A stretch of DNA of 64,000 bases from Leisingera methylohalidivorans DSM 14336 (GTDB lineage: Bacteria; Pseudomonadota; Alphaproteobacteria; Rhodobacterales; Rhodobacteraceae): assembly GCF_000511355.1 (NCBI RefSeq), contig NC_023146.1:156702-220701 (forward strand), read 5' to 3'. Shown piece after piece: positions 39,047 to 62,916 of the stretch (positions are counted from its first letter, which is position 1; every line of letters starts with the position of its first letter). The notes under the pieces are model-generated. The model saw only the letters and a list, made by a program, of their open reading frames with translations. It was not told the origin of the DNA and did no database searches. Both the position numbers and the translations under genes were made by a program.

Positions 39047-39775
39047 CTAGGCAAAACCAAGGCTGTGTCGCAGGTCGCTTTCCGGCTCGCCTTTGCGGTT
39101 CAAATCCAGGCGGTCCTCAATTCCTTGCAGATGCCGGTCCATAAGTGCGGCGGCCTCATCGGCGCGGCCGTTCAGGACATATTCAGACAGAAGGTTGTGC
39201 TCTTCGACTTCGCAATCGTCTGGCTTCGATTTTTCGTAGATCGCGACAATCAGCGATGAGCGGGCGATCAGTTCGCGGATAAAGCCGGCCATGATGGGGC
39301 TGTCGGCCTGATCGGCAAGTAACTGGTGGTACCGGCTGCAGCGGCGGATCACCTGGGCGGTGTCGCCCGCTTCCCGCGCGGCATGTTCGCCATGCAGGTG
39401 TTCGGTAAGCGCGTGCTGCATCGGCGGATCGCGCCGTTCGGCAGCGCGGCGGATAAGGTGCCCCTCAATGACCCGCCTGGCGCGGAAGACCTCGCGGGCC
39501 TCCTCGACCGATGGCCGGGCAACAAAGGCACCGCGGTTTGCGACCAGCTCGATGACATGGTCCGCCGCGAGCCGCGATAGGGCCGAGCGCACCCGTGTCC
39601 GGCCGACGCCGAACAGGTCGCAGAGCTCATCTTCCTTCAGATGTGTTCCCGGACCCAGCTTGTGATCAACGATGGCGTCGAAGATGCGCGAGTAGATCAG
39701 ATTGCTGTCAACGCGGGCAGGGCTGCCCGAATCTGCTGCTCCACCGTCCGGTTCCGTCCCGATTCGAGCTTTCAT
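39047..39775 (-). CDS. GntR-family regulator (FCD subfamily) of the adjacent ABC/amidohydrolase operon
   Basis: 242 residues from the ATG at 39775 (MKARIGTEPDGGAADSGSPA), with AAGGA upstream. The winged helix-turn-helix (about 25-90) contains LKEDELCDLFGVGRTRVRSA and ELVANRGAFVARPS; the C-terminal FCD domain (about 100-225) keeps the metal-site pattern with D and H residues (RYHQLLADQADSP, EEHNLLSEYVL). FCD regulators usually repress catabolic operons and release DNA on binding a small acid. It is divergent from the ABC operon, with GTATAC dyads between. Confidence 0.93.
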   Translation of the reverse strand: MKARIGTEPDGGAADSGSPARVDSNLIYSRIFDAIVDHKLGPGTHLKEDELCDLFGVGRTRVRSALSRLAADHVIELVANRGAFVARPSVEEAREVFRARRVIEGHLIRRAAERRDPPMQHALTEHLHGEHAAREAGDTAQVIRRCSRYHQLLADQADSPIMAGFIRELIARSSLIVAIYEKSKPDDCEVEEHNLLSEYVLNGRADEAAALMDRHLQGIEDRLDLNRKGEPESDLRHSLGFA

Positions 39776-39851
39776 GGCCTGTCCTTTCTGACGGGATGCC
39801 GTGAAACGGGTCACGGGGTTTTGCCCCAGACATCGCACCATCCGCCAGAAA

Positions 39852-39913
39852 CGTATACCTTTTTTGTCCGAAAACAAAAAGGTTGAATGTATACGATGAT
39901 TGTATACGATGAT
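39852..39913. promoter_or_regulatory. GTATAC repeat cluster, candidate GntR operator
   Basis: ACGTATACC at 39851-39859 and the tandem direct repeat TGTATACGATGAT (39888-39900 and 39901-39913) bring three GTATAC cores into 60 bp. CCTTTTT and AAAAAGG form inverted arms between them. The site lies between the GntR gene and the binding-protein ATG at 39966. FCD-type GntR proteins often bind TNGTNNNACNA-like dyads, which these cores resemble. Confidence 0.6.
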
Positions 39914-39965
39914 TGTTAGCACTGTCGCAAGAAACAGGCAAACTCAGTACAGCATGGAGATAGAA

Positions 39966-41546
39966 ATGACCTTTACATCCCGACTCAAAGCAGGACTGGC
40001 GGCGGGCGCCCTGGCAGCTGTCCTTGCCAGCGCCGCAGGCGCCAATACGCTGCGGATGGCAGATTCAACCGACATCGCGGCGATGGACCCGCACTCAATG
40101 ACCGAAAGCAACACCATCGGTTTCCTCAACCACGTCTACGAGGGGCTGGTGCGTTACAATCAGGATCTTGAGGTCGAGCCGGCGCTTGCGACTTCCTGGG
40201 AATTCATCGAGCCGACGCGCATCCGTTTCACGCTGCGTGAGGGTGTGACTTTCCATAACGGCAATGCGTTCACGGCTGACGACGTTGTCGCCTCTCTGGA
40301 ACGTGCAGCGCATGACAGCTCGCCGGTGAAAAGCAACATTCCCGGCATGAAAGCTGTCGAGAAGATTGATGACTATACTGTGGACGTGGTGCTGGCGGGG
40401 CCGGACCCCATCGTGCTGAACTACCTGACGAACATGCTGATCCTCGACCGGGAGTGGATGGAGGAGCATGACGCCCTGCTGCCTGCCGACATGCGCAGCG
40501 GCCGTGAAAACTATGCAGTGGCCAATTCCAACGGCACCGGGCCGTTCAAGCTGGACAGCCGTCAGCCCGATGCCCGCACCGTTCTGACCGTGCATGAAGG
40601 CTGGTGGGATGAGCCGCAACACAACCTGACCCGTATCGAATTTAGCCCGATCGGCTCAGATGCGACGCGCATTGCAGCACTGCTGTCGGGTGAGCTGGAC
40701 TTCATTACACCCGCGCCGCTGCAGGATATCGAGCGCATCGATCGTTCTGAAGGTGCATCCGTCATTTTGGCCCCGGCGTTGCGCACCATCATGCTGGGCA
40801 TGAACCAGACGGACAAACTGCACAACTCCAACCTGACCGACCGGAATCCGCTGCAGGACCGCCGCGTGCGCGAAGCCCTGTGGCGCGCGATCGACATGGA
40901 GTTGATCCGCAAGAAGATCATGCGTGACCGGTCCCGCAACGCGGCGCTGCTGGTGGCGCCGCCGGTGCCGGGCTACGACGAAGCGCTGGATGTGCTTGTG
41001 CCCGCGGATCCATCCGCGGCCAAGGCGCTGCTTGCGGAGGCCGGATACGCCGACGGGTTCGAGGTCGGCCTGGATTGCCCCAATGACCGCTATGTCAATG
41101 ATGAGGAGATTTGCCAGGCGATCACCGCCATGTGGTCGCGGATCGGCGTGACTGCCAAACTGACGGCGCAGACCAAGTCCAAGCATTTCGAGAAGCTGCT
41201 GGCGGGGTCCTCCGACATCTACATGATGGGCTGGGCAACGCTGCCGATGCTTGACAGCTACAGCGTGCTGTCGTCGTTGCTGCACACGCCGAGCGACCGG
41301 ATGGGTGCCTGGAATCCGGGCCGCTATTCCAACCCGGAAATCGATGCGCTGACCTCCAAGGTCGCGATCGAGCTCGATCCTGAAAGACGCACCGCCATGA
41401 TGAGCGAGGCGCTGAAGATCGCGCGGGACGACGTGGCGATAATTCCGCTGCACCAGCAGCCGCTGGCCTGGGCCGTGCGCGATGGCGTGGATCTGCCAAT
41501 CACCGCCGACAACAAACCCCGGCTCTGGTACGCGAAGATCAACTGA
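39966..41546 (+). CDS. ABC transporter substrate-binding protein (DppA/OppA family, SBP_bac_5)
   Basis: 526 residues from the ATG at 39966, with GGAG upstream. Residues 1-28 are a signal peptide (MTFTSRLKAGLAAGALAAVL, ending ASAAGA). Family marks: DIAAMDPHSMTESNTIGFLN, VTFHNGNAFTADDVVASLER and NGTGPFKLDS. It is the periplasmic receptor of the permease and ATPase genes that follow. This family binds peptides but also opines, glutathione, nickel and many amides. With three amidohydrolases downstream, a cyclic amide or ureido compound is a reasonable ligand. Confidence 0.93.
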   Translation: MTFTSRLKAGLAAGALAAVLASAAGANTLRMADSTDIAAMDPHSMTESNTIGFLNHVYEGLVRYNQDLEVEPALATSWEFIEPTRIRFTLREGVTFHNGNAFTADDVVASLERAAHDSSPVKSNIPGMKAVEKIDDYTVDVVLAGPDPIVLNYLTNMLILDREWMEEHDALLPADMRSGRENYAVANSNGTGPFKLDSRQPDARTVLTVHEGWWDEPQHNLTRIEFSPIGSDATRIAALLSGELDFITPAPLQDIERIDRSEGASVILAPALRTIMLGMNQTDKLHNSNLTDRNPLQDRRVREALWRAIDMELIRKKIMRDRSRNAALLVAPPVPGYDEALDVLVPADPSAAKALLAEAGYADGFEVGLDCPNDRYVNDEEICQAITAMWSRIGVTAKLTAQTKSKHFEKLLAGSSDIYMMGWATLPMLDSYSVLSSLLHTPSDRMGAWNPGRYSNPEIDALTSKVAIELDPERRTAMMSEALKIARDDVAIIPLHQQPLAWAVRDGVDLPITADNKPRLWYAKIN

Positions 41547-41559
41547 TCCTCCCCGCCTG

Positions 41560-41598
41560 GCGGGCTTGCGTGTTCCGGCGCGCAGGCCCGCGCTTTTT
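41560..41598 (+). terminator. terminator-like hairpin between binding-protein and permease genes
   Basis: GCGGGCTTGCG and CGCAGGCCCGC pair (one G-U) across a 10-base loop and are followed by GCTTTTT. It should end most transcripts after the binding-protein gene while some read through to the permeases. Confidence 0.65.
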
Positions 41599-41633
41599 AC
41601 GATGCCAAAAGCCGGCAAATGGAGGACCCTACA

Positions 41634-42602
41634 ATGATCGCTTTTGTTCTGAAGCGGCTGATCCAATCGATCATCGTGATGCTCGCCGTCGCCCTGATCG
41701 CCTTTTCCATGTTCCGTTTCATCGGTGACCCGGTGAACAGCATGCTTCCCGAAAACGCTTCCGCCGAAGACCGGCTGGAACTGCGCGAACAGCTTGGACT
41801 CGACCAGCCGGTCACGGTTCAATTCACGCGCTTCGTCTCCGGCGCCGTGCAGGGTGAATTCGGTATTTCCTACCGCAACAAACGCCCGGTCGCCGAAATG
41901 ATCGCAGAGCGGCTGCCGGCAACCCTGGAATTGGTGCTTGCCGCCGCCGTTTTTGCGCTGCTGCTTGGCGTGCCAATGGGCATCTATGCCGCACTTCATC
42001 CGAAGGGGGTGCTGAGTAACATGCTCAACGTCATCTCGCTGATCGGCATATCGGTGCCAACCTTCGTGACCGGCATCCTGCTGATCCTCGCGTTCTCGGT
42101 TTGGCTGAACTGGCTGCCGTCCTTCGGGCGCGGAGACACAGTTCAGATCGGATGGTGGAGTACCGGGTTCCTGACCGTCAGCGGACTGAAATCCCTGATC
42201 CTTCCGTCGGTGATGCTGGGCCTGTTCCAGGTCACGCTGATCATGCGGCTAGTACGCGCCGAGATGATGGAAGCGCTGCGTTCGGATTTCGTGCGGTTCG
42301 CCCGCGCCCGAGGCCTGACCAACCGGGCGGTGAACTTCGGCCATGCGCTCGGCAACACCCTGATGCCGGTCATCACCATCGTCGGCCTGCAGCTGGGGTC
42401 GATGATCGCCTTTGCGATCATTACCGAGACCGTCTTCCAATGGCCCGGTATGGGGCTCTTGTTCATCCAGGCTGTCAGCTTTGGCGATATTCCGGTGATG
42501 TCCGCTTACCTGGTGATGGTCGCGCTGGTCTTCGTGGCGATCAACATGATCGTCGATCTTCTCTACTTCGCAATCGATCCGCGCCTTTCGGTGCGGGCGT
42601 AA
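41634..42602 (+). CDS. ABC transporter permease (DppB/OppB family)
   Basis: 322 residues from the ATG at 41634 with a GGAGG site. It starts MIAFVLKRLIQSIIVMLAVA, the usual OppB/DppB first membrane segment, and has about six segments in all. The cytoplasmic EAA loop reads EALRSDFVRFARARGLTNRA. It forms half of the membrane channel with the next gene's product, which begins 12 bp downstream. Confidence 0.94.
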   Translation: MIAFVLKRLIQSIIVMLAVALIAFSMFRFIGDPVNSMLPENASAEDRLELREQLGLDQPVTVQFTRFVSGAVQGEFGISYRNKRPVAEMIAERLPATLELVLAAAVFALLLGVPMGIYAALHPKGVLSNMLNVISLIGISVPTFVTGILLILAFSVWLNWLPSFGRGDTVQIGWWSTGFLTVSGLKSLILPSVMLGLFQVTLIMRLVRAEMMEALRSDFVRFARARGLTNRAVNFGHALGNTLMPVITIVGLQLGSMIAFAIITETVFQWPGMGLLFIQAVSFGDIPVMSAYLVMVALVFVAINMIVDLLYFAIDPRLSVRA

Positions 42603-42614
42603 GGGAGACCCAAA

Positions 42615-43547
42615 ATGGCTCTTGAAGTATCCCCCCGATCCCGCCTCTCGGCGTTTCTGAAAAGCGACCTCTTCTATCGCTTCCGCACCTCATATGTCAC
42701 GGTGCTCGCGTCTGCCGTCACCCTGTTCATCGTCCTTGCGGCGCTGCTGGCCCCCTGGATCGCACCGCATGACCCTTTTGATGTCTCGACGCTGAGTCTC
42801 TGGGACAGCGAGCTGCCGCCGGTCTGGGCGGAAGGCGGTGATCCGCGGTTTATCCTCGGCACCGACAACCAAGGGCGCGATGTCCTGTCGGCCATTCTCT
42901 ACGGGTCGCGGATCTCGCTGGCCGTAGGGTTCGTGAGCGTGGCGCTGGCGATGGCAATCGGCATCGTGGTCGGTCTTGTCAGCGGCTATTTCGGCGGCGC
43001 GGTGGATGCGTTCTTCATGCGCATCGCCGATGTCATGCTGAGCTTTCCGACAATCCTGGTGGCGCTGCTGGTCAGCGGCATTGTCCGCGGCGCCCTGCCG
43101 CGCGAGATGCATGACAGTGCGGCTCTGATCGTGCTGGTCTTTGCCATCACCGTCACCACCTGGGTGCAATATGCGCGCACAGTGCGCAGCTCTACCATGG
43201 TCGAGCGCAGCCGCGAGTATGTCTATGCGGCGCAACTGGTGGGCCGGAAGCCCTTCGCCATCTTGTTCAGCCATATCCTGCCCAATGTGATGGGGCCGGT
43301 GCTGGTGATCGCGACGATCAACCTCGCCATGGCGATCCTGATCGAGGCGACTCTGTCCTTCCTCGGCGTCGGCATGCCGCCCACCAACCCGTCGCTTGGC
43401 ACGCTGATCCGCGTCGGCAACGAATACTTGTTCTCGGGCATCTGGTGGGTGGTGATCTTCCCCTCGCTGACGCTGGTGGCGCTGGTGCTGGCGGTCAACC
43501 TGCTGGGCGACTGGCTGCGCGATGCGCTGAACCCGAAGCTGCGCTGA
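42615..43547 (+). CDS. ABC transporter permease (DppC/OppC family)
   Basis: 310 residues with the OppC/DppC pattern: an N-terminal cytosolic stretch and first membrane segment (about 30-50), the ILGTDNQGRDVLSAILYGSR signature, then five more segments. The EAA loop is REYVYAAQLVGRKPFAILFS, and LEATLSFLGVG-type text (IEATLSFLGVGMPPTNPSLG) closes the domain. It pairs with the DppB-like permease. Confidence 0.94.
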   Translation: MALEVSPRSRLSAFLKSDLFYRFRTSYVTVLASAVTLFIVLAALLAPWIAPHDPFDVSTLSLWDSELPPVWAEGGDPRFILGTDNQGRDVLSAILYGSRISLAVGFVSVALAMAIGIVVGLVSGYFGGAVDAFFMRIADVMLSFPTILVALLVSGIVRGALPREMHDSAALIVLVFAITVTTWVQYARTVRSSTMVERSREYVYAAQLVGRKPFAILFSHILPNVMGPVLVIATINLAMAILIEATLSFLGVGMPPTNPSLGTLIRVGNEYLFSGIWWVVIFPSLTLVALVLAVNLLGDWLRDALNPKLR

Positions 43548-43558
43548 AAGGAATGACG

Positions 43559-44551
43559 ATGAATACCACGACCTTCCCCAATTCGCCGCTTCTGAGCGTG
43601 CGCGATCTGTCGATCTGCTTTGACACGCGGCACGGGCCCCTGCGGGCGGTGGACGGCATCACCTTCGACCTCGCCCCCGGCGAAATCCTCGGCATGGTCG
43701 GTGAATCCGGTGCCGGCAAATCGCTGACCGGCACCGCGATCACCGGTCTGCTGGAACGGCCCGGCCGCATCGACCGCGGCGAGATCCATTTTGAGGGGCA
43801 GCGCATAGACACGCTGTCCGCGGAAGAGATGCGGCGGCTGCGCGGGCGCAAGATCGGTGCGATCTTTCAGGATCCGCTGACCAGCCTCAATCCGCTGATG
43901 ACGGTGGGCCAGCAGCTGACCCAGACGATCCGTACCCATCTGCCCCTGGGCAAGGAGGCAGCGCGCAAGCGGGCCATCGAATGCCTTGCTGAGGTCGGCA
44001 TCCCCGCCCCGGAGGCCCGTATCGACCAGTATCCGCACCAATTTTCCGGCGGCATGCGCCAGCGGGTGGTGATCGCGCTTGCCCTTTGCGCCGAACCGTC
44101 GCTGGTGATCGCCGACGAACCGACCACCGCGCTGGACGTTTCGATCCAAGCGCAGATCCTGGATCTGCTCAAGCGGATGTGCCGGGAGCGCGGCGCGGCG
44201 GTCATTCTGGTGACCCATGACATGGGGGTGATCGCAGAGACCGCCGACCGCGTCGCGGTGATGTATTCTGGCCGGGTTGTCGAGATTGGGCCGGTGGAAA
44301 AAGTGGTACGCGATCCGCGCCACCCCTACACCAAGGGCCTGATGCAATCGATCCCGCGTGTCGGCTCCCGCGCTGAGCGGCTGACCCAAATCGACGGTGC
44401 GATGCCGCGGCTGACCGATCTTCCGCTAGGATGCGCTTTCCATCCCCGCTGCCCGCGGGCCTTTGCCGAATGCAGCAGCACCAAGCCGGCGCCTCGGCCG
44501 GTCGAGGGCGGCCATGTCGCCTGTCATCTCTACCAGGAGGAACCGGCATGA
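43559..44551 (+). CDS. ABC transporter ATP-binding protein (DppD/OppD family)
   Basis: 330 residues; the ATG at 43559 is spaced correctly from GAAAGGA, unlike the ATG 6 bases earlier. Walker A is GESGAGKS (about residue 42), the signature is FSGGMRQRVVIA and Walker B is LVIADEPTTALD. The C-terminal oligopeptide-transporter extension carries the cluster-type cysteines in GCAFHPRCPRAFAECSS. It energises the importer with the DppF-like partner, whose ATG overlaps its stop. Confidence 0.94.
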   Translation: MNTTTFPNSPLLSVRDLSICFDTRHGPLRAVDGITFDLAPGEILGMVGESGAGKSLTGTAITGLLERPGRIDRGEIHFEGQRIDTLSAEEMRRLRGRKIGAIFQDPLTSLNPLMTVGQQLTQTIRTHLPLGKEAARKRAIECLAEVGIPAPEARIDQYPHQFSGGMRQRVVIALALCAEPSLVIADEPTTALDVSIQAQILDLLKRMCRERGAAVILVTHDMGVIAETADRVAVMYSGRVVEIGPVEKVVRDPRHPYTKGLMQSIPRVGSRAERLTQIDGAMPRLTDLPLGCAFHPRCPRAFAECSSTKPAPRPVEGGHVACHLYQEEPA

Positions 44552-45642
44552 GCACAGCCACCGACACCCAACCGCTGGTCTCGCTGAAGGGCCTGTCCAA
44601 GACCTTTGATCTGTCGCCGCCGTTCCTGAACCGGCTGATTGAACGCAAGGGCAAGCGGACACTGCGCGCAGTTGACGGGCTCAACATCGACATTCCGCGC
44701 GGCAAGACTTTCAGCCTGGTCGGAGAGTCCGGATGCGGCAAGTCGACGGTCGCCAAGCTGGTGGTCGGGCTGCATGGCGCGACTTCGGGCGAGATTCGCT
44801 TTGATGGCACCGACCTGACCGCGCTGCCCGCTGCCGCACGGGGGGAATTCCGCCGCCGCATCCAGATGATCTTTCAGGACCCTTATGCCAGCCTGAACCC
44901 GCGCTGGCGGGTGCGGGACATCATTGCTGAACCGATGCGCAGCTTCGGCATCACCGAAAACCGCCAGGAGGAGCGGGCAGAGGTCGGGCGGCTGCTGGAA
45001 ATGGTTGGCCTTTCCGCCCGCGACGGCGAAAAGTTTCCGCATGAGTTCTCCGGCGGCCAACGCCAGCGGATCTCGATCGCGCGGGCAATCTCATCGCGGC
45101 CGGAGTTCCTGGTGTGCGACGAACCGACCTCGGCGCTCGACGTGTCGGTGCAGTCGCAGGTTCTCAACCTGATGCGGGACCTGCAGGATGAACTGGGGCT
45201 GACGTATTTGTTCATCAGCCATGACCTCGCGGTGGTGGATTTCATGTCGGACTACGTTGGCGTGATGTATCTGGGGCGCCTCGTGGAGGCGGGGCCGGCA
45301 GAGCAGATCTTTGCCGCGCCGGAACACCCCTACACGCAGCTGCTGATGGACACCGTTCCCGACATCAGTCTGGGACGGCGCGACCGGGCGGCCGCGATCG
45401 GCGAAGTGCCCAATCCAATCACCCCGCCGCCGGGCTGCTCCTTCAATCCGCGCTGCCCGCTTGCCAATTCGCGCTGCCGGGAAGAATCGCCTGGCCTCGT
45501 GGCGCGGAATGGGGGCACCGTTGTCGCCTGTCATGCCGTCACGGAAAACCGGGCCGTCGAGCATCGGGCTGGAACCGGCCACGCTGCCGGTAGCGGCACG
45601 GATAAGGGAGAGCGCCTAGAGACTCAAAAGGGAGTAGCCTGA
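44548..45642 (+). CDS. ABC transporter ATP-binding protein (DppF/OppF family)
   Basis: 364 residues from the ATG at 44548 after AGGAGGA. Walker A is GESGCGKS, the signature FSGGQRQRISIA and Walker B FLVCDEPTSALD. The C-terminal extension has GCSFNPRCPLANSRCREE. The last 40 residues are a low-complexity tail beyond the usual end. The stop overlaps the start of the flavin reductase-like gene by one base. Confidence 0.93.
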   Translation: MSTATDTQPLVSLKGLSKTFDLSPPFLNRLIERKGKRTLRAVDGLNIDIPRGKTFSLVGESGCGKSTVAKLVVGLHGATSGEIRFDGTDLTALPAAARGEFRRRIQMIFQDPYASLNPRWRVRDIIAEPMRSFGITENRQEERAEVGRLLEMVGLSARDGEKFPHEFSGGQRQRISIARAISSRPEFLVCDEPTSALDVSVQSQVLNLMRDLQDELGLTYLFISHDLAVVDFMSDYVGVMYLGRLVEAGPAEQIFAAPEHPYTQLLMDTVPDISLGRRDRAAAIGEVPNPITPPPGCSFNPRCPLANSRCREESPGLVARNGGTVVACHAVTENRAVEHRAGTGHAAGSGTDKGERLETQKGVA

Positions 45643-46265
45643 TGGAGTTCGATTTCGAGGCGCTGCCGCCGAAGGACCGCTACCGCTTGTTGTGCAGCTT
45701 CGTGGCGCCGCGGCCGATCGCGCTGGTGACCACCAACAGTGAAAGCGGCATGCCGAATGCGGCGCCGATGAGCTTTTTCAATGTCTTCTCGCAGGATCCG
45801 CCGATTGTGATCCTGGGAATCCAGGCCCGTCCCGACGGCACCGAGAAGGAGACAATGCGCAATATCCGGCGGTCGAACGAATTTGTCGTCAACCTGTGCG
45901 ACATGGCGATCGCCCAGCAGATGGTGGACTGCGGCATCAGTTTTCCGGATGATGTGGACGAGGTCGCATTGACCGGCCTCAGTCATGCGCCGTCGCTCAA
46001 GATCGGGCCGGAGCGGGTGGCCGAGGCGCCCGCCTCTATGGAGTGCCGAGTGTCGCAGATCATCGACTACCCGCACCGCGCCATCGTGCTGGGCGAAGTG
46101 GTGCAAATGCATGTGCGCGACACCTGTCTCGATGCGGCGGGGCGCTATGTCCGGCCCGAAGCCTACCAGCCAGTCGCGCGGCTGCATGCTGACAACTACA
46201 TCGTATCGGACCGGCAGTTCGAGCTGACCGCAACCGATTCACTGACTGCTGCAACGGGGAGCTGA
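45642..46265 (+). CDS. flavin reductase-like FMN-binding protein
   Basis: 207 residues with the flavin reductase-like split-barrel: RYRLLCSFVAPRPIALVTTN near the start, NAAPMSFFNVFSQDPPIVIL (FMN-phosphate side) and SNEFVVNLCD. Relatives supply reduced flavin to two-component oxygenases or act on their own as flavoredoxin-type proteins. No oxygenase component lies in this operon, so either it works alone or its partner is elsewhere. Its ATG overlaps the DppF-like stop, and the CodA-like gene begins 7 bp after it. Confidence 0.88.
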   Translation: MEFDFEALPPKDRYRLLCSFVAPRPIALVTTNSESGMPNAAPMSFFNVFSQDPPIVILGIQARPDGTEKETMRNIRRSNEFVVNLCDMAIAQQMVDCGISFPDDVDEVALTGLSHAPSLKIGPERVAEAPASMECRVSQIIDYPHRAIVLGEVVQMHVRDTCLDAAGRYVRPEAYQPVARLHADNYIVSDRQFELTATDSLTAATGS

Positions 46266-46272
46266 GGCACGT

Positions 46273-47472
46273 ATGACCGAAGATATACTTCTGAGAAACC
46301 TGCGTCTCCTTGGTGCGGAACCGGCTGACATGCTGATTGAGGGCGGGCGTATAGCGCAAACCGGCCCGGATCTGCCATCCCGGCCCGGTGTGCCGGAGGA
46401 GGACTGCGGCGGCGCGATCCTGCTGCCCGGGCTGGTGGAGGCCCATACCCACTTGGACAAATCCCTGTGGGGCATGGGCTGGCGCCCGCATCAGGCGGGA
46501 CCCAGCCTGCGCGACAAGATCGATACAGAACGCCGCCTGCGCCAAGAGTGGAACATTGACCCCCACCGCCAGTCGACGCGCCAGGCGCTGCTGTCGCTTG
46601 GCCATGGCTCCACCGCAATCCGCAGCCATGTGGATGTGGATACCGAAACGGGCCTTGCTGGCATCGAGGGCGTTGCGCGCACCCGCAGCGAGCTGGCCGG
46701 GCTGGTGGACATAGAGATCGTTGCCTTCCCGCAGTCCGGGCTGATGACGCGTCCCGGCACGCTGGAACTGCTCGATGCCGCGCTGCGCGGCCCGGCGGAT
46801 GTCGTTGGCGGTCTGGACCCCTGCGGCATGGATGCCGATCCAAAGGGCCAGCTTGACGCCGTCTTTGCCCTTGCAGAAAAGCATGGAAAACCCATCGACA
46901 TCCATCTGCACGAACCTGGCGAGCTGGGGGCGTTCAGCATGGAGATGATCATTGAACGCACCTGCGCGCTTGGGATGCAGGGGCGGGTGACGGTCAGTCA
47001 TGCGTTTTGCCTGGGCATGCCTGACCGCGACCGTGCCCGGGCGCTGGTGGCGCAGCTGGCGGAGGCACAGATCCACATCGCGACGGTTGCCACCCCGTTC
47101 CGGCCGGTGCCGCTGGCCGAGGATCTGCGGGCGGCCGGGGTGACGCTCTGTGCCGGATCCGACGGGATCCGCGATACCTGGGGGCCCTATGGCAACGCGG
47201 ACATGCTGGAACGCGCCATGCTGCTGGGCCAGCGCAACAACATGCGCGCCGACAGTGATGTCGAACATGCCTTGTGGTGCTGCTCCTGGGGCGGTGCCAA
47301 AGTTATGGGGCTGGAGGATTACGGGCTTGAAACAGGCTGCCAGGCGGATCTGGTGCTGGTCGAGGCCGAGACCGTTGCCCATGCGGTGGTTGCGCACCCG
47401 CCGCGCAAGCTGGTGCTGAAGGCGGGCCGGATCGTCGCCCGCGAGGGCCGCAGTCTGAGGGAGGCGCCGTGA
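46273..47472 (+). CDS. amidohydrolase, cytosine-deaminase-like (CodA family)
   Basis: 399 residues with the CodA arrangement of metal and catalytic residues: the HxH motif in LVEAHTHLDKSLWG (about residues 57-59), DIHLHEPGELGAF (His and Glu), VSHAFCLGMPD (His) and the Asp in CAGSDGIRDTWGPYGNADML. CodA deaminates cytosine, but relatives hydrolyse isoguanine, creatinine, N-acyl and cyclic amides. The product acts in the cytoplasm on what the ABC system brings in. The next gene overlaps its stop. Confidence 0.9.
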   Translation: MTEDILLRNLRLLGAEPADMLIEGGRIAQTGPDLPSRPGVPEEDCGGAILLPGLVEAHTHLDKSLWGMGWRPHQAGPSLRDKIDTERRLRQEWNIDPHRQSTRQALLSLGHGSTAIRSHVDVDTETGLAGIEGVARTRSELAGLVDIEIVAFPQSGLMTRPGTLELLDAALRGPADVVGGLDPCGMDADPKGQLDAVFALAEKHGKPIDIHLHEPGELGAFSMEMIIERTCALGMQGRVTVSHAFCLGMPDRDRARALVAQLAEAQIHIATVATPFRPVPLAEDLRAAGVTLCAGSDGIRDTWGPYGNADMLERAMLLGQRNNMRADSDVEHALWCCSWGGAKVMGLEDYGLETGCQADLVLVEAETVAHAVVAHPPRKLVLKAGRIVAREGRSLREAP

Positions 47473-48962
47473 TGACCGCGGGCAAGGAGCCAGGCCGCAT
47501 ACTGATGACCGCAGACTGGGTGGTCGGCCATGAAAACGGCCAGCACGTGCTGCTGCCGCGCGGCGAAGTCGTGTTTGAAGACGGCGCCATCCTGTTTGCC
47601 GGACACGGGTTCGAGGGAGAGGTGGCGCGGCGCATCGATTGCGGCCGCGCGCTAATCGGGCCGGGCTTCATCGATCTTGATGCGCTTTCGGATCTCGACA
47701 CCACGGTTTTGGGTCTCGACAACCAGCCCGCCTGGAAGAAGGGCCGGATCTGGCCGCAAAGCTATATGGAGAAAGGCCCGCGCGAGATGTACGCGCCGGA
47801 GGATCTGCGCTGGCAGAAGCACTATGCCTTTACCCGGCTGATCCGCAACGGCATCACCACCGCGCTGCCCATTGCCTCGCTGTTCTATCGCGAATGGGGT
47901 GAGACCTGGGACGAATTCGCCGGTGCGGCGGAGGCGGCGGAGTCGCTTGGTCTGCGGGTCTATCTGGGCCCCGCATACCGCAGCGGCAACACCTATGTCG
48001 CCGAAGCGGGCAGCATTGCGTTCCATTTCGACGAGGAACGCGGCCTTGCGGGCCTCGCTGACGCGGTGCGGTTCTGCGAGCACTTCGAAGGCCGGGCAGG
48101 GGGGCTGATCCGGACCATGCTGGCCCCTGACCGGATCGAGACCTGCACTGGGGCGCTGTTGTCGCGGACTGCACAGGCGGTACGGGATCTGGATGTGCCG
48201 GTGCGGCTGCATTGCTGCCAGTCCGCCTTTGAATACGACAGTGTCGTGCGGATGCATGGCAAGAGCCCGCCGGAATGGCTGCGCGACATCGGTTTTCTGT
48301 CGCCGCGGGCGATCCTGCCGCATCTGACCTTCCTGTCAGGCCTCAACGGGATCGAATACGAGGCACCGGATCTGGACATTCTGGCAGAGGGTGGCGCGGC
48401 GCTGGCGCACTGCCCGCTGGTGATGGCGCGCAGCGGTGCAGTTCTGAAATCCTTTGCGCGCTACCGCGATGCGGGGATGACCATCGGAATGGGGACCGAC
48501 ACCCATCCCCCGGACATGATCCTGAACATGCAGCTGGGCCTGATCACCGCCCGGATGGCAGACAGCAACCCGCAAGCTGTCAGCGCTGCCGACATGTATG
48601 ATGCCGCGACACTGGGCGGTGCCAAGGCGCTGGGACGGAGTGATCTGGGCCGGCTTGCTCCGGGAGCGCGGGCTGACATTACCGTCATCAGCCTCGACGA
48701 CCCGGCCATCGGGCAGGTCATTGACCCGATCCAGACAATTCTGCTGAACGGTTCCGGCCGTGATGTGCGCACGGTGGTGATCGACGGCCGCATCGTGATG
48801 CAGGGCGGCGTCATTCCCGGTGTCGATCATGACGCGCTGCGTGTGGGTGCGCAAAATCGGTTTGACGGGCTGCTGGCGCAATACCCCGACCGGACCTTTG
48901 GCCACCCGCCGGTGGAGGAGATCTTTGCTCCGGCCTATCCGCTGCGGAAGGCGCCTGCATGA
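47472..48962 (+). CDS. amidohydrolase-family protein lacking the N-terminal HxH motif
   Basis: 496 residues; a GTG one codon earlier is an alternative start. Overall it follows the chlorohydrolase/cytosine-deaminase-like amidohydrolase fold: VRLHCCQSAFEYD (His), ILPHLTFLSG (His), ALAHCPLVMARSG and the Asp in GMGTDTHPPDMILNM. Where the family has PGFxxxHxH, this protein reads GPGFIDLDALSDLDTTVLG, so the first two metal-binding His are replaced by Asp-Leu-Asp. It may bind one metal or a different set of ligands. The C-terminal composite domain (ARADITVISLDDP) is intact, so it is not a decayed gene. Confidence 0.88.
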   Translation: MTAGKEPGRILMTADWVVGHENGQHVLLPRGEVVFEDGAILFAGHGFEGEVARRIDCGRALIGPGFIDLDALSDLDTTVLGLDNQPAWKKGRIWPQSYMEKGPREMYAPEDLRWQKHYAFTRLIRNGITTALPIASLFYREWGETWDEFAGAAEAAESLGLRVYLGPAYRSGNTYVAEAGSIAFHFDEERGLAGLADAVRFCEHFEGRAGGLIRTMLAPDRIETCTGALLSRTAQAVRDLDVPVRLHCCQSAFEYDSVVRMHGKSPPEWLRDIGFLSPRAILPHLTFLSGLNGIEYEAPDLDILAEGGAALAHCPLVMARSGAVLKSFARYRDAGMTIGMGTDTHPPDMILNMQLGLITARMADSNPQAVSAADMYDAATLGGAKALGRSDLGRLAPGARADITVISLDDPAIGQVIDPIQTILLNGSGRDVRTVVIDGRIVMQGGVIPGVDHDALRVGAQNRFDGLLAQYPDRTFGHPPVEEIFAPAYPLRKAPA

Positions 48963-50389
48963 CCAGCATCCTGATCCGTCACGCCACCGCCCTGACCGTC
49001 GACGCGGACAGGCGGGTCATTACCGACGCGGCCATCGCCATCGAGGGCAGCCGGATTGCCGCCATCGGGCGCGATGCGGACCTGGCGCCGCTGGCCGATA
49101 AAGCCGCCGAGGTCATCGACGCCACCGGCATGACCGCAATTCCCGGGTTGATCGATTGCCATGCCCATGCCGGGCACGGGCTTGTCCGGGCGCTTGGGTC
49201 CGGTGACATCGAAGCCTGGTTTGAGGCCTGCGAGGTGCTGTACGCAAGGGGGACGGATGTTGCGTTCTGGGCCGCCGAGGCGCGGCTGACGCTGCTGGAA
49301 AGGCTGATGGCCGGAGTGACCACCTGCGTCACTCTGCTGGGCGGCGGGGCGGATATCTACCGCAGCGATGATCCGGCCTTTGGCGATGCCTATTGCGCTG
49401 CGGTGCGCGAAAGCGGGCTGCGCACGATGCTGGCAGTGGGGCCGGGGCGCCCGCCATTCCCTCGCCGCTACCGCGATAGCAGCGGCACCGGGATCGACGT
49501 GGATTTCGCCCAACAGCTGGCGGTGAGCGCGGATCTGATCACCCGGCATGACAGCATTCTTGAGACCGGAACGGGTGTTTGTCTGGTGATGCCCGTCTAC
49601 GCACTTGGCGGCGATGATGCTGCAAGCGATGCGGACGTGCGCCGGATGGCAGGTGCGGTGGCGGCACTGCAGGAACAGCACGGTGTTTTGTTGACCCAGG
49701 ATGGGCACCGGAACGGCTCCGTTGCCTATGCCCGCGACCTTGGCCTTCTCGGCCCCCATGCGTTGCTGGCGCATTGCGTGGACCTTACCGATGCGGATAT
49801 CGCGGCGCTGGAGGAAACCGGTGCCGCAGTCGCCCACAATCCCAGCTCCATCATGTCCATTCTGGGCCGCTGCCCCGCGCCTGAGCTGATCGGACGGGGC
49901 ATCCGTGTGGCTCTTGGCTCAGATGCGGCGGCGCCGGACCGAGGCTACGACATGTTCCGCCATATGGCGCAGGCCATGCATTACCACCGCCGCCATTTTG
50001 CGGATCCTTCGGTGCTGCCACCGGGCAAGGTGCTGGAAATGGCAACCATCGATGCTGCCCGGGCATTGGGGCTGGAGCGGGATCTCGGTTCGCTTGAAGC
50101 GGGAAAGAAGGCCGATATCGTTCTGGTGGACATGCGCAAGCCGCATTTGACGCCGCCGGATATGCCGCTGCACGCCATCACCCATTTCGCGAATGCTGCT
50201 GATGCAGACACCGTTATTGCCAACGGGCGGGTTGTGCTGCGTGGACGCGTGTCTCAGACGCTGGATCCGCAGCCTGTCATATGCAAGGCCAACGAAGCCG
50301 CGCGGGCGGCAGTCAGCGGAGCTGGGCTTGAAGCGTTGCGGCTTGAACCCGGAACCCTGTGGGGCAATGATCAGAACCCAGAAGGATAA
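48959..50389 (+). CDS. amidohydrolase (AtzA/TrzN / 8-oxoguanine-deaminase-like subfamily)
   Basis: 476 residues, start overlapping the previous stop by 4 bp. Full metal set: LIDCHAHAGHGLVRALG (HxH, about residues 64-66), LLTQDGHRNGSV (His; Glu usual here not seen), LLAHCVDLTD (His) and the Asp in ALGSDAAAPDRGYDMF. AHNPSSIMSIL is the usual substrate-side loop. Relatives deaminate or dechlorinate N-heterocycles such as guanine derivatives and s-triazines. It closes the ABC operon. The C-terminal 40 residues form the returning beta-domain. Confidence 0.9.
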   Translation: MTSILIRHATALTVDADRRVITDAAIAIEGSRIAAIGRDADLAPLADKAAEVIDATGMTAIPGLIDCHAHAGHGLVRALGSGDIEAWFEACEVLYARGTDVAFWAAEARLTLLERLMAGVTTCVTLLGGGADIYRSDDPAFGDAYCAAVRESGLRTMLAVGPGRPPFPRRYRDSSGTGIDVDFAQQLAVSADLITRHDSILETGTGVCLVMPVYALGGDDAASDADVRRMAGAVAALQEQHGVLLTQDGHRNGSVAYARDLGLLGPHALLAHCVDLTDADIAALEETGAAVAHNPSSIMSILGRCPAPELIGRGIRVALGSDAAAPDRGYDMFRHMAQAMHYHRRHFADPSVLPPGKVLEMATIDAARALGLERDLGSLEAGKKADIVLVDMRKPHLTPPDMPLHAITHFANAADADTVIANGRVVLRGRVSQTLDPQPVICKANEAARAAVSGAGLEALRLEPGTLWGNDQNPEG

Positions 50390-50583
50390 TCCCGCAGTGC
50401 GCGAGGCTGGCACCGGTAGCGAGCGTTCATGCCGGTTGGAGACCGGACCACGTACTGTTGGGCAATAAACTGTCCGGACTTCAACTGTATTTGCCGCTGC
50501 TTCGGGAAGCCGAAGCATTGGACTCGCTAGCGGCAAAACCTCAATTGCAATCCTGATTTGAGCACTGCTTTGCAGAGACGCGG

Positions 50584-50611
50584 AAAAAGAGCCCCGCCAG
50601 CGGCGGGGCTC
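50584..50611 (-). terminator. rho-independent terminator of the permease/racemase operon
   Basis: Read on the minus strand, GAGCCCCGCC-GCT-GGCGGGGCTC is a perfect 10-bp stem followed by TTTTT. It lies 24 bp past the NCS1 permease stop and may also serve the convergent ABC operon. Confidence 0.9.
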
Positions 50612-50634
50612 TCCCTTGGCATTGCGCAGAAAGG

Positions 50635-51999
50635 TCAGTCCAGGAACCGCTTGGCGGCAGGCAGATGCTGCATCAGCAGGTAATAGGAGACGCCGGCCGG
50701 CAGCAGGCTGGCGTACCAGGAGATGCTGGAGAATATCAGTGCCGCCGCAACACCGATAGCCATGGCAATCACCGCGGCCCAGTTGACGCCCTGATAGGGG
50801 CCGGTCTCGTCATAAAGCTTGTCCAGATCCAGCTCCTGCTTGCGCAGAATGAAGTAGTCCACCACCAGGATCGCGAAGATCGGGCCGAGGAAGGCGGAGT
50901 AGGTCTGAATGAACAGGCTGAGGCCAGCTGCGGATTCATCCTTGACCAATTCCCAGGGGAAGGTGGCAAAGGCCAGCAGGCCCACGATCACCGCCGAGGT
51001 CTTGAAGTTGATCTTGAAAATATCCATCAGCGCATAGGCCGGCGGCACCACATTGTTCAGAATGTTGGTGGTGACCTGCGCAAAGGCAATGAACAGAAGC
51101 GTGATGACCAGCAGCGGTTTGTTGTCGACTGCGCTGGAGAACACCTTGATCGGGTCCACCTCGCCGGTTGCGCCAGACACCATCAGGCCGATCAGCCCCA
51201 TGAACAGGGTCGCGGGCAGGATCGAGTTGGCATAAATTGCAATCTGTCGGACAGGGCCTACATTGCGGCGCAGCTCGCGGGAATAATCCGACACGTTCAG
51301 CATCATGGTGCTGTAGATGCCTAGGAACAGCATGGTGGCTCCCCAGAACGGCGCGCCCCAGGTGCCTTCGACGTTGACCAGATTGGTGGAGATTTCCTCA
51401 CCGTATTTGCTGATAACGCTGAAGAACATGTAGACCAGCGAGCCGATGATGAAGACGGAACCAATGTTCTCCAGCCATTTGATGCCGTGAAAACCCAGCA
51501 CCGACAGGCCGATCTGCAACAGCTGAAAGCCGATGAAGAACACCACGATATTATCATAGCCGAACATCGTATCAGAGACGAGGTTCAGCGCCCCGGCGCC
51601 GATCCAGCTTTGGAAGCCGAACCAGACAATGGCGGGAACTGAACGCACCAGCGCTGGCAGGCGGGTGCCGGCAAAGCCGAAGGCGGAACGCGCCTGCACC
51701 ATGAAGGGGATGCCGTATTTGTGGCCCGCCTGGCCGTTGATCATCAGCGCTGCACCGATCACACCGCAGCCGATGGCAATCGCCACAAAGGTCTGCAGCA
51801 GGTTCAGTGTGCCCACCAGGCCTGAGCCGATGGTGAATGTGCCGATCGACACGCAACCGCCCAGCCAGGCAAACAGATAGGACCAGGGGTCCATGATCCG
51901 GGTTTGCTGCGGTGCAAGGCTCTCCTCCCCGATCCCCTTGCTGCTGTGGTCCTCAATGCCGCCTGCGGCGGCGGCTTCCATTTCTGCGTTCATGGTCAT
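50635..51999 (-). CDS. NCS1-family nucleobase/hydantoin-type permease
   Basis: 454 residues from the ATG at 51999 after GGAGG. It has about twelve membrane segments and NCS1 features: a WSYLFAWLGGCVSIGTFTIG first segment, GHKYGIPFMVQARSAFGFAG (the GxxxGIPF region), VWFGFQSWIGAGAL and TTNILNNVVPPAY. NCS1 proteins import cytosine, uracil, allantoin, hydantoins or thiamine precursors with Na+ or H+. The racemase gene directly upstream in the operon and the amidohydrolases next door favour a hydantoin-like substrate. Confidence 0.93.
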   Translation of the reverse strand: MTMNAEMEAAAAGGIEDHSSKGIGEESLAPQQTRIMDPWSYLFAWLGGCVSIGTFTIGSGLVGTLNLLQTFVAIAIGCGVIGAALMINGQAGHKYGIPFMVQARSAFGFAGTRLPALVRSVPAIVWFGFQSWIGAGALNLVSDTMFGYDNIVVFFIGFQLLQIGLSVLGFHGIKWLENIGSVFIIGSLVYMFFSVISKYGEEISTNLVNVEGTWGAPFWGATMLFLGIYSTMMLNVSDYSRELRRNVGPVRQIAIYANSILPATLFMGLIGLMVSGATGEVDPIKVFSSAVDNKPLLVITLLFIAFAQVTTNILNNVVPPAYALMDIFKINFKTSAVIVGLLAFATFPWELVKDESAAGLSLFIQTYSAFLGPIFAILVVDYFILRKQELDLDKLYDETGPYQGVNWAAVIAMAIGVAAALIFSSISWYASLLPAGVSYYLLMQHLPAAKRFLD

Positions 52000-52022
52000 T
52001 GTCTTCCTCCCTGACGATACCA

Positions 52023-52721
52023 TTATTTCGGGTTGGGGCGCGCATAGGCGTTGATCTTGCTGGTCTTCAGGCCGCAGCCTGCCAGCGCCTCGATCATCCG
52101 CGTTGCCACGCTGACCCCGTCGATGACGGGGATGCCTGTCTCTTCGCTGAGCCAGGCCGTGAGATCGGCCATGCCTGCACAGCCCAGCACCACCGCTTCA
52201 CAAAGGTCCTCCTCGATGGCGCGCAGGATCTCGGCGCGGATCTTTTGGCGCGCGTCTGAGCCTTCCTCCTCCAGCGCCAGCACCGGGATCGCGGCTGAGC
52301 GCACCCGGCGGCACTGATGGCTGAGGCCGTAGCCGTGGATCAGATGCTCGATCACCGGAACCGAGCGCGGCAGCGTGGTCACCACCGAGAACGAGGTCGC
52401 CAGCATGCTCGCCGCCTTTACAGCCGCTTCGCAGATCCCAAGCACCGGGCCGGTCGCCAGTTCGCGGCAAGCGCCGATGCCGGGATCGTCGAAACAGGCG
52501 ACGACGATGCCATCGATGCCCTGTTCTTCTGCCGCCGCGACCCGTGCCAGCAGGCCGGGCAGCGACATCGCTTCGTCGAAATGGCCTTCGATGCTGGCCG
52601 GGGCGCCTTCTGCGGTTGCGCCCAGGATGGTCACGCCAGGGCTGGCGGCAGCCTCTGCGGCCTCGACGATCTTCGCCGTCATCGACGCGGTCGAGTTTGG
52701 ATTGACGACCAGAATTTTCAT
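52023..52721 (-). CDS. hydantoin racemase / Asp-Glu racemase family protein
   Basis: 232 residues starting MKILVVNPNSTASMTAKIVE, the typical opening of HyuE-type hydantoin racemases. The two catalytic cysteines are in GIVVACFDDPGIGA (about residue 76) and VVLGCAGMADLT (about 181). It has the normal length of the family. The permease gene starts 23 bp beyond its stop, and a GntR gene is divergent. It probably interconverts enantiomers of the substrate brought in by the NCS1 permease. Confidence 0.9.
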   Translation of the reverse strand: MKILVVNPNSTASMTAKIVEAAEAAASPGVTILGATAEGAPASIEGHFDEAMSLPGLLARVAAAEEQGIDGIVVACFDDPGIGACRELATGPVLGICEAAVKAASMLATSFSVVTTLPRSVPVIEHLIHGYGLSHQCRRVRSAAIPVLALEEEGSDARQKIRAEILRAIEEDLCEAVVLGCAGMADLTAWLSEETGIPVIDGVSVATRMIEALAGCGLKTSKINAYARPNPK

Positions 52722-52745
52722 GCGCTTCTCCTTTGTTATCAGAAA

Positions 52746-52755
52746 TTGTTAACAA
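52746..52755. promoter_or_regulatory. TTGTTAACAA palindrome, candidate GntR operator
   Basis: A perfect 10-bp palindrome in the divergent region between the racemase/permease operon (ATG at 52721) and the GntR gene. It fits the TNGTNNNACNA-like targets of FCD-type GntR repressors loosely. Binding is inferred. Confidence 0.5.
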
Positions 52756-52855
52756 AAAATGACAACAAGTCAAGCCTACCCGCCCGCGGCGCCATTGCAA
52801 AGCGGCCCGCCGGTCCTTAAGTTGCCCCGGTGCAAGAAAAAGTTTTCAGGGCCCG

Positions 52856-53551
52856 ATGAAGGATTCTCCCGAAGATCTGATCGTGAACGCGATTCTCGAC
52901 GCGATTGCCGAACAGCGCCTGCCGGCCGGCACCAAGCTGGGCGAACAGGCGCTGAGCGATCTGTTCGGCTGCAACCGCGCCAATGTGCGCCGGGCGCTGG
53001 CCTCGCTCGCGGCACAGCAGGTTGTGGAGCTGCGCCCGAACCGCGGTGCCTTTGTGATGACGCCCTCGCCGAAGGAGGCGCGCGACATTTTCCAGGCGCG
53101 CCGGGCTATTGAAAGCACTATCGCCCGGCATGCTTCCGGCCGGGCGTCGGCGGACGACATCGCCTTTCTGCGGGACAATATTCTAGAGGAAGCCGACGCG
53201 CGCAAAGCAGGCGACAAACCGGCGGAACTGCGTGCCTCTCGTCAGTTTCACATGCGGATCGCGCAGATTGCCGGCAATCTGGTGCTAGAGCGGTTCCTGT
53301 CGGAGCTGACCATGCGCAGCACGCTTATTCTGGGGCTTTATTCTTCCTCCGGAAATTCCTCCTGCGCCGAGGACGAACATGACCGGATTGTCGATGCGCT
53401 GGAGGCCGGCAGCACCGATGAGCTGGTCCGGTTGGCCGACGAGCATCTTCGCCATCTGGAGGCCGGGTTGAATTTTGAGGAGCCGCCCGCCGCCCCGATG
53501 GGCCTGAAAGAGCAGCTGATGACCCCGCGCAAAGCGCCTTCGGCCGAGTAG
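52856..53551 (+). CDS. GntR-family regulator (FCD subfamily) of the racemase/permease operon
   Basis: 231 residues with an N-terminal winged helix-turn-helix (about 10-75; LGEQALSDLFGCNRANVRRA, ELRPNRGAFVMTPS) and an FCD domain (about 85-215; ASRQFHMRIAQIAGNLVLER and EDEHDRIVDALEAG, with the metal-site His and Asp). It is divergent from the racemase gene. A GGCGGGCG/CGCCCGCC stem-loop follows its stop at 53552-53576 but has no T-tract. It resembles the GntR at 39047 in design, so both halves of the catabolic block have their own repressor. Confidence 0.93.
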   Translation: MKDSPEDLIVNAILDAIAEQRLPAGTKLGEQALSDLFGCNRANVRRALASLAAQQVVELRPNRGAFVMTPSPKEARDIFQARRAIESTIARHASGRASADDIAFLRDNILEEADARKAGDKPAELRASRQFHMRIAQIAGNLVLERFLSELTMRSTLILGLYSSSGNSSCAEDEHDRIVDALEAGSTDELVRLADEHLRHLEAGLNFEEPPAAPMGLKEQLMTPRKAPSAE

Positions 53552-53865: not shown

Positions 53866-54143
53866 ATGGCCAACAAGCGACCGAAGCCCGAAGAGATTGT
53901 TAAGAAGTTACGGCAAGTTGAGGTCCTGACAGGACAAGGCATGCCGCGTCTCGATGCGATCAGACAGATCGGCGTGACCGAACAAACCTTTTACGCTGGA
54001 AGAAAAAGTACGGTGGAATGGGCACAGAGCAACTCAAGGACCTGAAGCGGCTTCAGAAAGAGAACGAGCGGTTGCGTCGTGCGGTGTCGGATCTGACTTT
54101 GGACAAGCTGATCCTGAAGGAAGCCGCATCGGGAAACTTTTGA
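53866..54143 (+). pseudogene. IS3 orfA with a one-base deletion
   Basis: The ATG at 53866 after GGAGG gives MANKRPKPEEIVKKLRQVEV and a helix-turn-helix (GMPRLDAIRQIGVTEQTFY), then leaves frame at about 53996, stopping at 54045. Adding one C (TAC-GC to TAC-CGC) restores WKKKYGGMGTEQLKDLKRLQ and the leucine-zipper end DLTLDKLILKEAASGNF with a stop at 54143. OrfA is the DNA-binding regulator half of the IS3 transposase. Confidence 0.85.
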
Positions 54144-54991
54144 GCCTTTCACGCCGACGCGCTTGCACTGATCATGTGCGTAGCCGGTTCAAGGTATCTG
54201 AGCGACGCGTTTGCCGTGTTCTGGGCCGGCACCGGTCCACACAGCGTCGGACGCCACGAATGCGGGCTGACGAGGAGCGTTTGATCGCGGATATGATTGA
54301 GCTGGCACGGCAGCACGGTCGATATGGCTACCGCCGGGTTGCCGCCCTGCTGAGAGATGCAGGATGGCAGGTGAATGACAAACGCGTGGAACGCTTGGGG
54401 CGGCGTGAGGGGCTTAAAGTGCCAATGAAACAACCAAAGAAGGGGCGGCTCTGGCTGAACGATGGATCGTGCGTCCGTCTGCAGCCCGAGTATCGCAACC
54501 ATGTTTGGCCGTATGGCTTCGGGCATCATCGAACCGACGCTGGCAGGGCGTTCAGGACGCTCAACATCTTGAACGAGTACAGCCGGGAATGTCTGGCGAT
54601 CCGTGTAAAACGCAAGCTGAACCCGACCGAGGTCATTGATGCACTGACTGACCTGTTCATCCTGCGCGGCGTGCCAGGCTGCATTCGGTCAGACAATGGC
54701 CCGGAGTTCATCGCTGAGGCTGTCAGAGACTGGATCAAAGCGACCGGAGCAAAGACTGCGTATATCGAGCCTGGGTCACTCTGGGAAAACGGCTGCTGCG
54801 AAAGCTTCAATGGGCGGATGCGGGACGAATTGCTCAACGGTGAAATCTTCTACCCGCTGCGCGCAGCCCAAATCATCATCGAAAGCTGGAGAAAACACTG
54901 CAACACCAAGCGACCACACAGTGCATTGGGCTACCGCCCGCCAGCGCCCGAAGCCATCGTCTTGATGGACCGCAGGCCAATCATGCACTAA
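54140..54991 (+). CDS. IS3 OrfB transposase, first catalytic Asp replaced
   Basis: 283 residues starting at a TTG that overlaps the restored orfA end, as expected for programmed frameshifting. The HTH_21-type part (HGRYGYRRVAALLRDAGWQV) precedes the integrase core (about 115-270). The core has IRSDNGPEFIAEAVRDWI (second Asp) and WENGCCESFNGRMRDELLNG (Glu). The first Asp, normally in YDF, is Gly here (HVWPYGFGHHRTDAG). Loss of one of the three metal-binding residues should abolish transposition. Confidence 0.88.
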   Translation: MSLSRRRACTDHVRSRFKVSERRVCRVLGRHRSTQRRTPRMRADEERLIADMIELARQHGRYGYRRVAALLRDAGWQVNDKRVERLGRREGLKVPMKQPKKGRLWLNDGSCVRLQPEYRNHVWPYGFGHHRTDAGRAFRTLNILNEYSRECLAIRVKRKLNPTEVIDALTDLFILRGVPGCIRSDNGPEFIAEAVRDWIKATGAKTAYIEPGSLWENGCCESFNGRMRDELLNGEIFYPLRAAQIIIESWRKHCNTKRPHSALGYRPPAPEAIVLMDRRPIMH

Positions 54992-62910: not shown

Positions 62911-62916
62911 GACGGA

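Follow-up and report, generated by a model that had tools for sequence, protein, structure and literature searches.

The closest described counterparts of the locus examined here are allantoin catabolism (hpx/puu/all), hydantoin utilisation (hyu), the Rut pyrimidine pathway, the AtzC/cytosine deaminase family and 2-nitrobenzoate nitroreductase. The locus lies in the final 64 kb (the window, meaning the whole stretch analysed) of the 220,701-bp contig C3, a plasmid-sized replicon in the three-contig genome of Leisingera methylohalidivorans DSM 14336. It comprises nine co-directional genes (39966–50389, the module) with a divergent FCD-type GntR regulator, and a convergent NCS1 permease-racemase gene pair with a second divergent FCD-GntR gene (the cassette). 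With allantoin catabolism it shares the allantoin/hydantoin-type racemase and FCD-GntR regulators, and in some relatives PuuE, AllA, ureidoglycine aminohydrolase (UGlyAH) or AllB lies adjacent, whereas the 13 window genes encode neither allantoinase nor allantoate hydrolase and add a flavin protein, three amidohydrolases and an ABC importer. An NCS1 permease and an Asp/Glu/hydantoin racemase also occur in hyu systems, but their hydantoinase and carbamoylase were not found among the 13 window proteins, which leaves the locus outside that group. A Flavin_Reduct-domain protein (flaR) is shared with the Rut pathway, to which the locus does not belong either, as its 13 genes lack a RutA-like oxygenase and flaR matches no RutF model; a role of flaR as RutF or as an oxygenase partner was rejected, since a scan of 14 out of 26 non-core clusters of neighbouring genes also revealed no oxygenase. 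Amidohydrolase A carries the full motif set of the AtzC/cytosine deaminase family (402.9 bits to 6nbo) but in a different operon context. The best solved relative of flaR is 2-nitrobenzoate nitroreductase (4z85, 135.7 bits over residues 9–201), a likeness in sequence; of the window genes scanned, none was recognised as a nitroaromatic gene.

As a conserved module, the nine-gene set occurs in Rhodobacterales and Hyphomicrobiales, and Pantoea has a related version; its genes are grouped beyond chance expectation. A flaR scan returned 232 related places, and conservation was counted over the best 80, which were picked by similarity to the flaR protein, so that all counts are conditional on flaR; furthermore, the open reading frame (ORF) caller misses some genes and many of the 80 contigs are cut. 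ORF clusters recovered flaR in 75 of these loci, GntR in 67, amidohydrolase B in 65, A and DppD/F in 63 each, a racemase in 58, DppB in 55, the substrate-binding protein (SBP) in 52, DppC in 45 and amidohydrolase C in 31. Where more than 9 kb was available on each side (56 loci), A was present in 50, B in 48, C in 28, a racemase in 45 and the importer parts in 43–44. Both A and B are present in 66 of the 80 loci, and in 62 of these B follows A directly; flaR and the racemase gene are co-directional neighbours in 53 of 80. The gene order was confirmed in annotated plasmid relatives, and importer, A and B occur in a row in Pantoea. B homologues at E 1e-60 or better are found in 26 of 198 family-sample genomes, with an identity of at least 46% in 19. 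At E 1e-100 or better, and with the host genome counted each time, they are found in 6 of 385 class-sample and 9 of 398 phylum-sample genomes. Homologues of flaR at 41–45% identity also sit in other contexts (four plasmids read), and flaR alone is therefore no marker of the pathway.

An earlier reading of the window (the original prediction) had proposed a catabolic gene set without a published description. The nine plus-strand genes, the NCS1-racemase pair convergent to them and the two divergently oriented regulator genes of FCD-GntR type that it described are all present and were confirmed by ORFs and family scans (Pfam on all 13 proteins; NCBIfam on ten, with dppB, dppC and dppF left out), and among these 13 genes the same scans agree with its statement that carbamoylase, a RutA-like oxygenase and a classical hydantoinase are missing. 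The search for gene-order conservation that it suggested revealed an order kept in relatives, though not universally. No paper on the nine-gene set was found among the matches listed by a full-text search of the open-licence literature; passages of PMC3546935 concern hydantoinase genes rather than this set. The module is thus real, conserved and, within the open-licence literature, undescribed, although its enzyme families are already known.

GntR1 (39047–39922, minus strand; Pfam FCD 58.7 and GntR 49.2 bits) is divergent from the module operon, and as its helix-turn-helix starts near residue 76, its start codon is probably set too far upstream. On the plus strand, the module begins with an SBP of the Dpp/Nik/Opp class (39966–41546; SBP_bac_5, 271.5 bits), followed, after a gap of 87 bp given a dppB start at 41634, by DppB-like (41634–42602; BPD_transp_1, 123.4 bits) and DppC-like permeases (42615–43547; BPD_transp_1 93.7, OppC_N 31.7 bits), whose order is kept in relatives. 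The DppD-like ATPase (about 43553–44551; ABC_tran and oligo_HPY in a scan from 43544) and the DppF-like ATPase (44548–45642; ABC_tran 113.2, oligo_HPY 68.5 bits) complete the importer. The best match of the SBP in the PDB reaches 119 bits, and its matches are scattered among proteins that bind peptides, nickel, haem or opines, a comparison that yielded no ligand hint. Downstream are flaR (45642–46265; Pfam 92.9 bits) and amidohydrolases A (46273–47472), B (47469–48962) and C (48959–50389); four junctions within the nine-gene run overlap, by 1–4 bases each.

The three amidohydrolases belong to distinct subfamilies, as had been anticipated: A to PRK05985 (NF004636, 540.8 bits, cut-off 408), B to PRK06151 (NF004801, 723.1 bits, cut-off 416) and C to a COG0402-like group (Pfam Amidohydro_1, 128.7 bits), for which none of the best 25 NCBIfam models reaches its cut-off. 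Amidohydrolase deaminases carry an HxH motif, a strand-5 His with HxxE, a strand-6 His and a strand-8 Asp, with the usual residue roles. To judge from the aligned residues, only A keeps this metal site in full: its His and Asp residues are conserved in at least 97% and its Glu in at least 85% of 56 aligned sequences, and its nearest structures are of the N-isopropylammelide aminohydrolase type and cytosine deaminase. C retains HxH and carries an invariant QDGH in strand 5 (25 sequences), with D248 facing the template His, and thus lacks the strand-5 His/HxxE combination.

In B, HxH is replaced by D71-A72-L73, within a PGFIDLDALS motif where homologues at 33% identity or less have PGLVNIHSHP, and no histidine is present at residues 65–100. 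Ten repeat loci were removed before rows were compared, although some remaining rows represent one place twice, one B row lacks the N-terminus and two distant rows are gapped at the first-His position. The first His is kept in none of 119 B-clade rows (at least 46% identity) covering the position, whereas all 13 outgroup rows (33% identity or less) covering it retain His; the complete HxH was seen in all nine of these 13 whose whole motif was inspected. The Pantoea B has GFIDLDAL at the same place, and a profile alignment supports the register. B nevertheless keeps H248, H285 and D344 in all 30 aligned sequences, and 105 of its 497 positions are at least 97% conserved (61 sequences), so that B is under strong selection and not a decaying gene. 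That a single clade within a large hydrolase superfamily has strictly lost HxH poses a direct, testable question of enzyme evolution and warns against automatic names such as 'chlorohydrolase' or 'cytosine deaminase' for these genes.

The cassette consists of the NCS1 permease (50635–52023, minus strand; PF02133, 215.4 bits), the racemase (52023–52721, minus strand; Pfam 204 bits; 3qvj 226.5 and 5lfd 166.9 bits) and the FCD-type regulator GntR2 (52856–53551, plus strand), identified by Pfam and placed in a GntR tree. NCS1 matches occur in 12 plasmid records, nine of them at more than 80% identity, and all nine also hold the racemase (at least 73.7%). Conclusions on the cassette cover ten regions rather than whole genomes, seven from plasmid records (L212–L218) and three others (L225–L227). 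Racemase and NCS1 genes are adjacent in all ten and a divergent GntR gene is present in nine, while A, B, C and flaR were found in none of the ten (nine by tblastn, the 4.5-kb Kocuria record by annotation). These module-free cassettes derive from Paracoccus, Leisingera thetidis, Limimaricola, Ponticoccus, Kocuria and three further relatives. The NCS1-racemase-GntR unit is therefore autonomous, and the view of the original prediction that both operons form one system is not supported; a fixed joint system was rejected. In the tiny circular actinobacterial record of Kocuria flava (L217, 4520 bases), the racemase-NCS1 pair fills much of the sequence (NCS1 68.9% identical), reflecting either wide transfer or an assembly oddity.

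The closest named relatives found are from Leisingera: flaR is 94% identical to its counterpart in L. daeponensis, and the cassette racemase 93.5% identical to that of L. thetidis. In 65 of the 80 flaR loci, the racemase shares 43–57% identity with the window enzyme, whereas in nine close relatives flaR, A and B share 74–96% with their window counterparts. In all seven close relatives whose contig continues beyond C (L039, L041, L042, L044, L045, L140, L141), a racemase gene directly follows C, the place occupied by the cassette in the window; L038 ends about 200 bases past C and is uninformative, and in L040 the racemase gene follows B. The window module thus seems to have lost its own racemase and gained the cassette. 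Three racemases (window, L041, L066) match 3qvj best, followed by its sister entry 3qvk and by 5lfd, an 'allantoin racemase'. We take 3qvj to be the Klebsiella allantoin racemase. A paper on a Klebsiella allantoin racemase is cited in PMC5270733. The window enzyme is similar to allantoin racemases and conserves the CF and LGCAGM Cys motifs (50 sequences).

Both Cys motifs have a role in racemases of this family, and since neither they nor overall similarity separate allantoin from hydantoin racemases, the specificity of the window enzyme is a prediction. The permease is a member of the NCS1 family and resembles the hydantoin transporter Mhp1 (149 bits), while it misses the NCBIfam cut-offs of the allantoin permease equivalogs (137.2 of 620 and 103.8 of 800 bits). 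The cassette is tied to allantoin more directly by its regulator than by permease similarity, as two Roseovarius GntRs divergent from PuuE-AllA-UGlyAH genes fall inside the cassette GntR clade in a tree of 43 rows (clade support 100/99, inner fork 99/95); the tree program warned of long branches, including L218, L185 and those leading to the GntR1 group.

A link to allantoin and ureide genes, missed by the original prediction, is also apparent from the neighbourhoods of related loci. Neighbours were counted by similarity search (at least 35% identity for host-genome queries) in 114 loci of more than 7 kb, six pairs of which overlap. UGlyAH is encoded in 11 of these, PuuE in three, AllA in two and AllB in one. 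The UGlyAH loci represent three lineages: two loci come from Roseovarius, one, which has a different importer, from R. aestuarii, and eight are of an Ensifer/Sinorhizobium type. Simple proportion gives a chance expectation of about 0.4 (for 80 loci averaging 18.4 kb, in genomes of 4.5 Mb assumed to hold about 1.1 copies each). PuuE, UGlyAH and AllA neighbour the module in Roseovarius (L041, L044), and PuuE and UGlyAH in R. aestuarii (L104). NCBIfam identifies the allantoinase PuuE in L044 and L104 (510.8 and 524.7 bits, cut-off 424.6) and, with scores that exceed each of the four cut-offs, ureidoglycine aminohydrolase/allantoicase in L079, L041 and L104; the ureidoglycolate lyase of L041 narrowly passes one subfamily model (160.1 vs 160) and is under the cut-offs of the others. 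AllB follows B in a plasmid of S. meliloti HM006 (529.5 bits, cut-off 357.85). Host guanine deaminase, XdhA, XdhB and urate oxidase queries found no homologue at 35% identity or more in the 114 loci, which fits a pathway entry below urate. The host genome itself encodes guanine deaminase, xanthine dehydrogenase, urate oxidase, PuuE, AllA and UGlyAH on contig C2. Contig C3 additionally contains PuuE-like deacetylase matches far below the same PuuE cut-off, at contig positions 49625–50371 (48.9/29.6 bits) and 57718–58440 (72.1 bits).

Based on these features, we propose, at a probability of roughly 40%, that module and cassette provide import and deamination or hydrolysis reactions feeding racemic allantoin or a close ureide. 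What is observed comprises which genes are present and in what order, their conservation, the autonomy of the cassette, the changed residues and the recurring, though minority, proximity to ureide genes; all reactions, the substrate and the regulation are proposals. In the first unit (39047–50389), the Dpp-type importer would take up an amino-substituted N-heterocycle or ureide, from which A would hydrolytically remove an amino or amine group. B and C, with their altered metal sites, might perform further hydrolysis or assist A, and flaR would reduce the substrate or an intermediate directly, no oxygenase partner being present. The product would most likely be allantoin or a near relative, made without full stereocontrol. 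The second unit (50635–53551) would mediate uptake and racemisation of allantoin-type hydantoins and substitute for the racemase carried by close relatives of the module, after which the ureide enzymes encoded on C2 could complete the breakdown to glyoxylate and ammonia. The cyclic ureide named in the original prediction as substrate is thus plausible as an intermediate, whereas its stepwise ring opening and deamination by three amidohydrolases gains support from the intact deaminase site of A and loses it with the altered sites of B and C. The gene set is found in marine as well as plant-associated bacteria and is frequently plasmid-borne; a module that feeds allantoin would constitute a new entry to ureide catabolism and a means of using a nitrogen source in the sea and the rhizosphere.

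Several observations weigh against this proposal. Ureide neighbours are confined to a minority of loci, and UGlyAH is absent from all 20 further regions searched (18 with a B-clade protein; two repeat named loci) and, like other ureide genes, from the nine cassette regions covered by tblastn. That a genome has both UGlyAH and the module was rejected as evidence, as the enzyme is near universal in the family (above cut-off in 175 of 198 family-sample genomes). Furthermore, flaR and a racemase occur with another importer and without A or B in L047, L054, L059 and L096, flaR occurs with C and without A or B in L053 and L113, and 3qvj was deposited as a 'putative hydantoin racemase'. Sulfitobacter plasmids encode a three-subunit xanthine-dehydrogenase-type enzyme beside C, which could indicate different chemistry. 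Other components are exchanged as well: a Pot-like importer replaces the Dpp type in nine of the 80 loci (L051, L064, L077, L089, L092, L098, L099, L104, L109) and, outside the class, is present in three loci from a single genus (L144, L145 and L150, the first two scanned in part), and a CDA-fold deaminase gene is found in six loci where C was not detected (L143 and L146 by Pfam; L122, L125, L147 and L155 by annotation or similarity). These importer, deaminase and dehydrogenase swaps suggest deamination of a heterocycle without naming it. On S. meliloti pSymA (L127), racemase, flaR and GntR genes are divergent from a different Dpp-type importer, with neither A nor B in the 22.6-kb stretch, an arrangement that is a reduced form of the module.

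Alternatively, module and cassette might be unrelated neighbours put together by mobile elements, in which case the window module would operate without a racemase step. The ten module-free cassette regions are consistent with this scenario, as are integrase-core (rve) transposase genes on either side of the region (37092–37712 and 54140–54991), which we take to be IS3-like. We nevertheless consider it somewhat unlikely, because the seven informative close relatives all have a racemase at the position where the window has the cassette. A simple composite transposon was rejected, as the two transposase flanks lack significant similarity to each other.

A second alternative to the allantoin-feeding pathway is a hydantoin or cyclic imide pathway unlike that of allantoin, in which 5-substituted hydantoins, dihydropyrimidines or cyclic imides would be taken up, epimerised by the racemase and opened by one of the amidohydrolases. 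It would account for the Mhp1-like permease and for a racemase whose Pfam family includes hydantoin racemases. A PuuE-related deacetylase (L219:3781–4689, 79.2 of 424.6 bits) that precedes importer, A and B in Pantoea is also in line with it and is perhaps the ring-opening enzyme of that version of the module. However, the best 25 NCBIfam models for each of A, B and C include no hydantoinase model above its cut-off and no carbamoylase model, A is deaminase-like, and the recurrent neighbours identified in the scanned clusters (14 of 26 non-core) are PuuE, AllA, UGlyAH and AllB, which makes this pathway unlikely. In yet another reading, the compound broken down would be an N-alkylamino or amino heterocycle (of s-triazine, creatinine, cytosine-like or pterin-like kind) unconnected to allantoin, and the racemase would act on a later intermediate. 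This reading draws on the structural relatives of A, the CDA-type deaminase genes replacing C and the COG0402 enzymes on pterins reviewed in part of PMC5270733, but appears rather improbable given the racemase beside flaR in 53 of 80 loci and the recurrence of ureide neighbours in separate lineages.

Within the allantoin-feeding proposal, a specific source of the substrate may be envisaged. Passages of PMC5270733 propose that COG0402 enzymes may in general act on oxidised or nitrosated guanine or on pterins. Extending this to the module, a link of our own making, the cell would salvage guanine in such oxidised or nitrosated form from the environment (e.g., guanidinohydantoin/iminoallantoin or 8-nitroguanine) and convert it to racemic allantoin by the nitroreductase-like flaR and the deaminases, bypassing urate, with B either working without the canonical His residues that bind the metal or serving A as a non-catalytic partner; we regard this version as very unlikely.

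Repeated GTATACGATGATT sites (GTATAC-type) between GntR1 and the SBP gene (39889–39915) represent a candidate operator, and similar sites are present in several close relatives. Sites of this type occur in 8 of 42 GntR-SBP gaps (13 sites vs 2.83 expected) and in none of 22 GntR-flaR gaps, and are considered a minor lead. A chemoreceptor encoded near the module (34282–36540) contains HAMP and MCP domains as well as a Cache match below threshold, and could sense the substrate of the module. Beyond the cassette, a tetrapyrrole methylase gene adjoins a molybdopterin oxidoreductase gene with Fe4S4 and BFD-like domains (55065–58456), presumably arranged as in assimilatory nitrate reduction, and further ABC transporter genes are located at 61228–63990.

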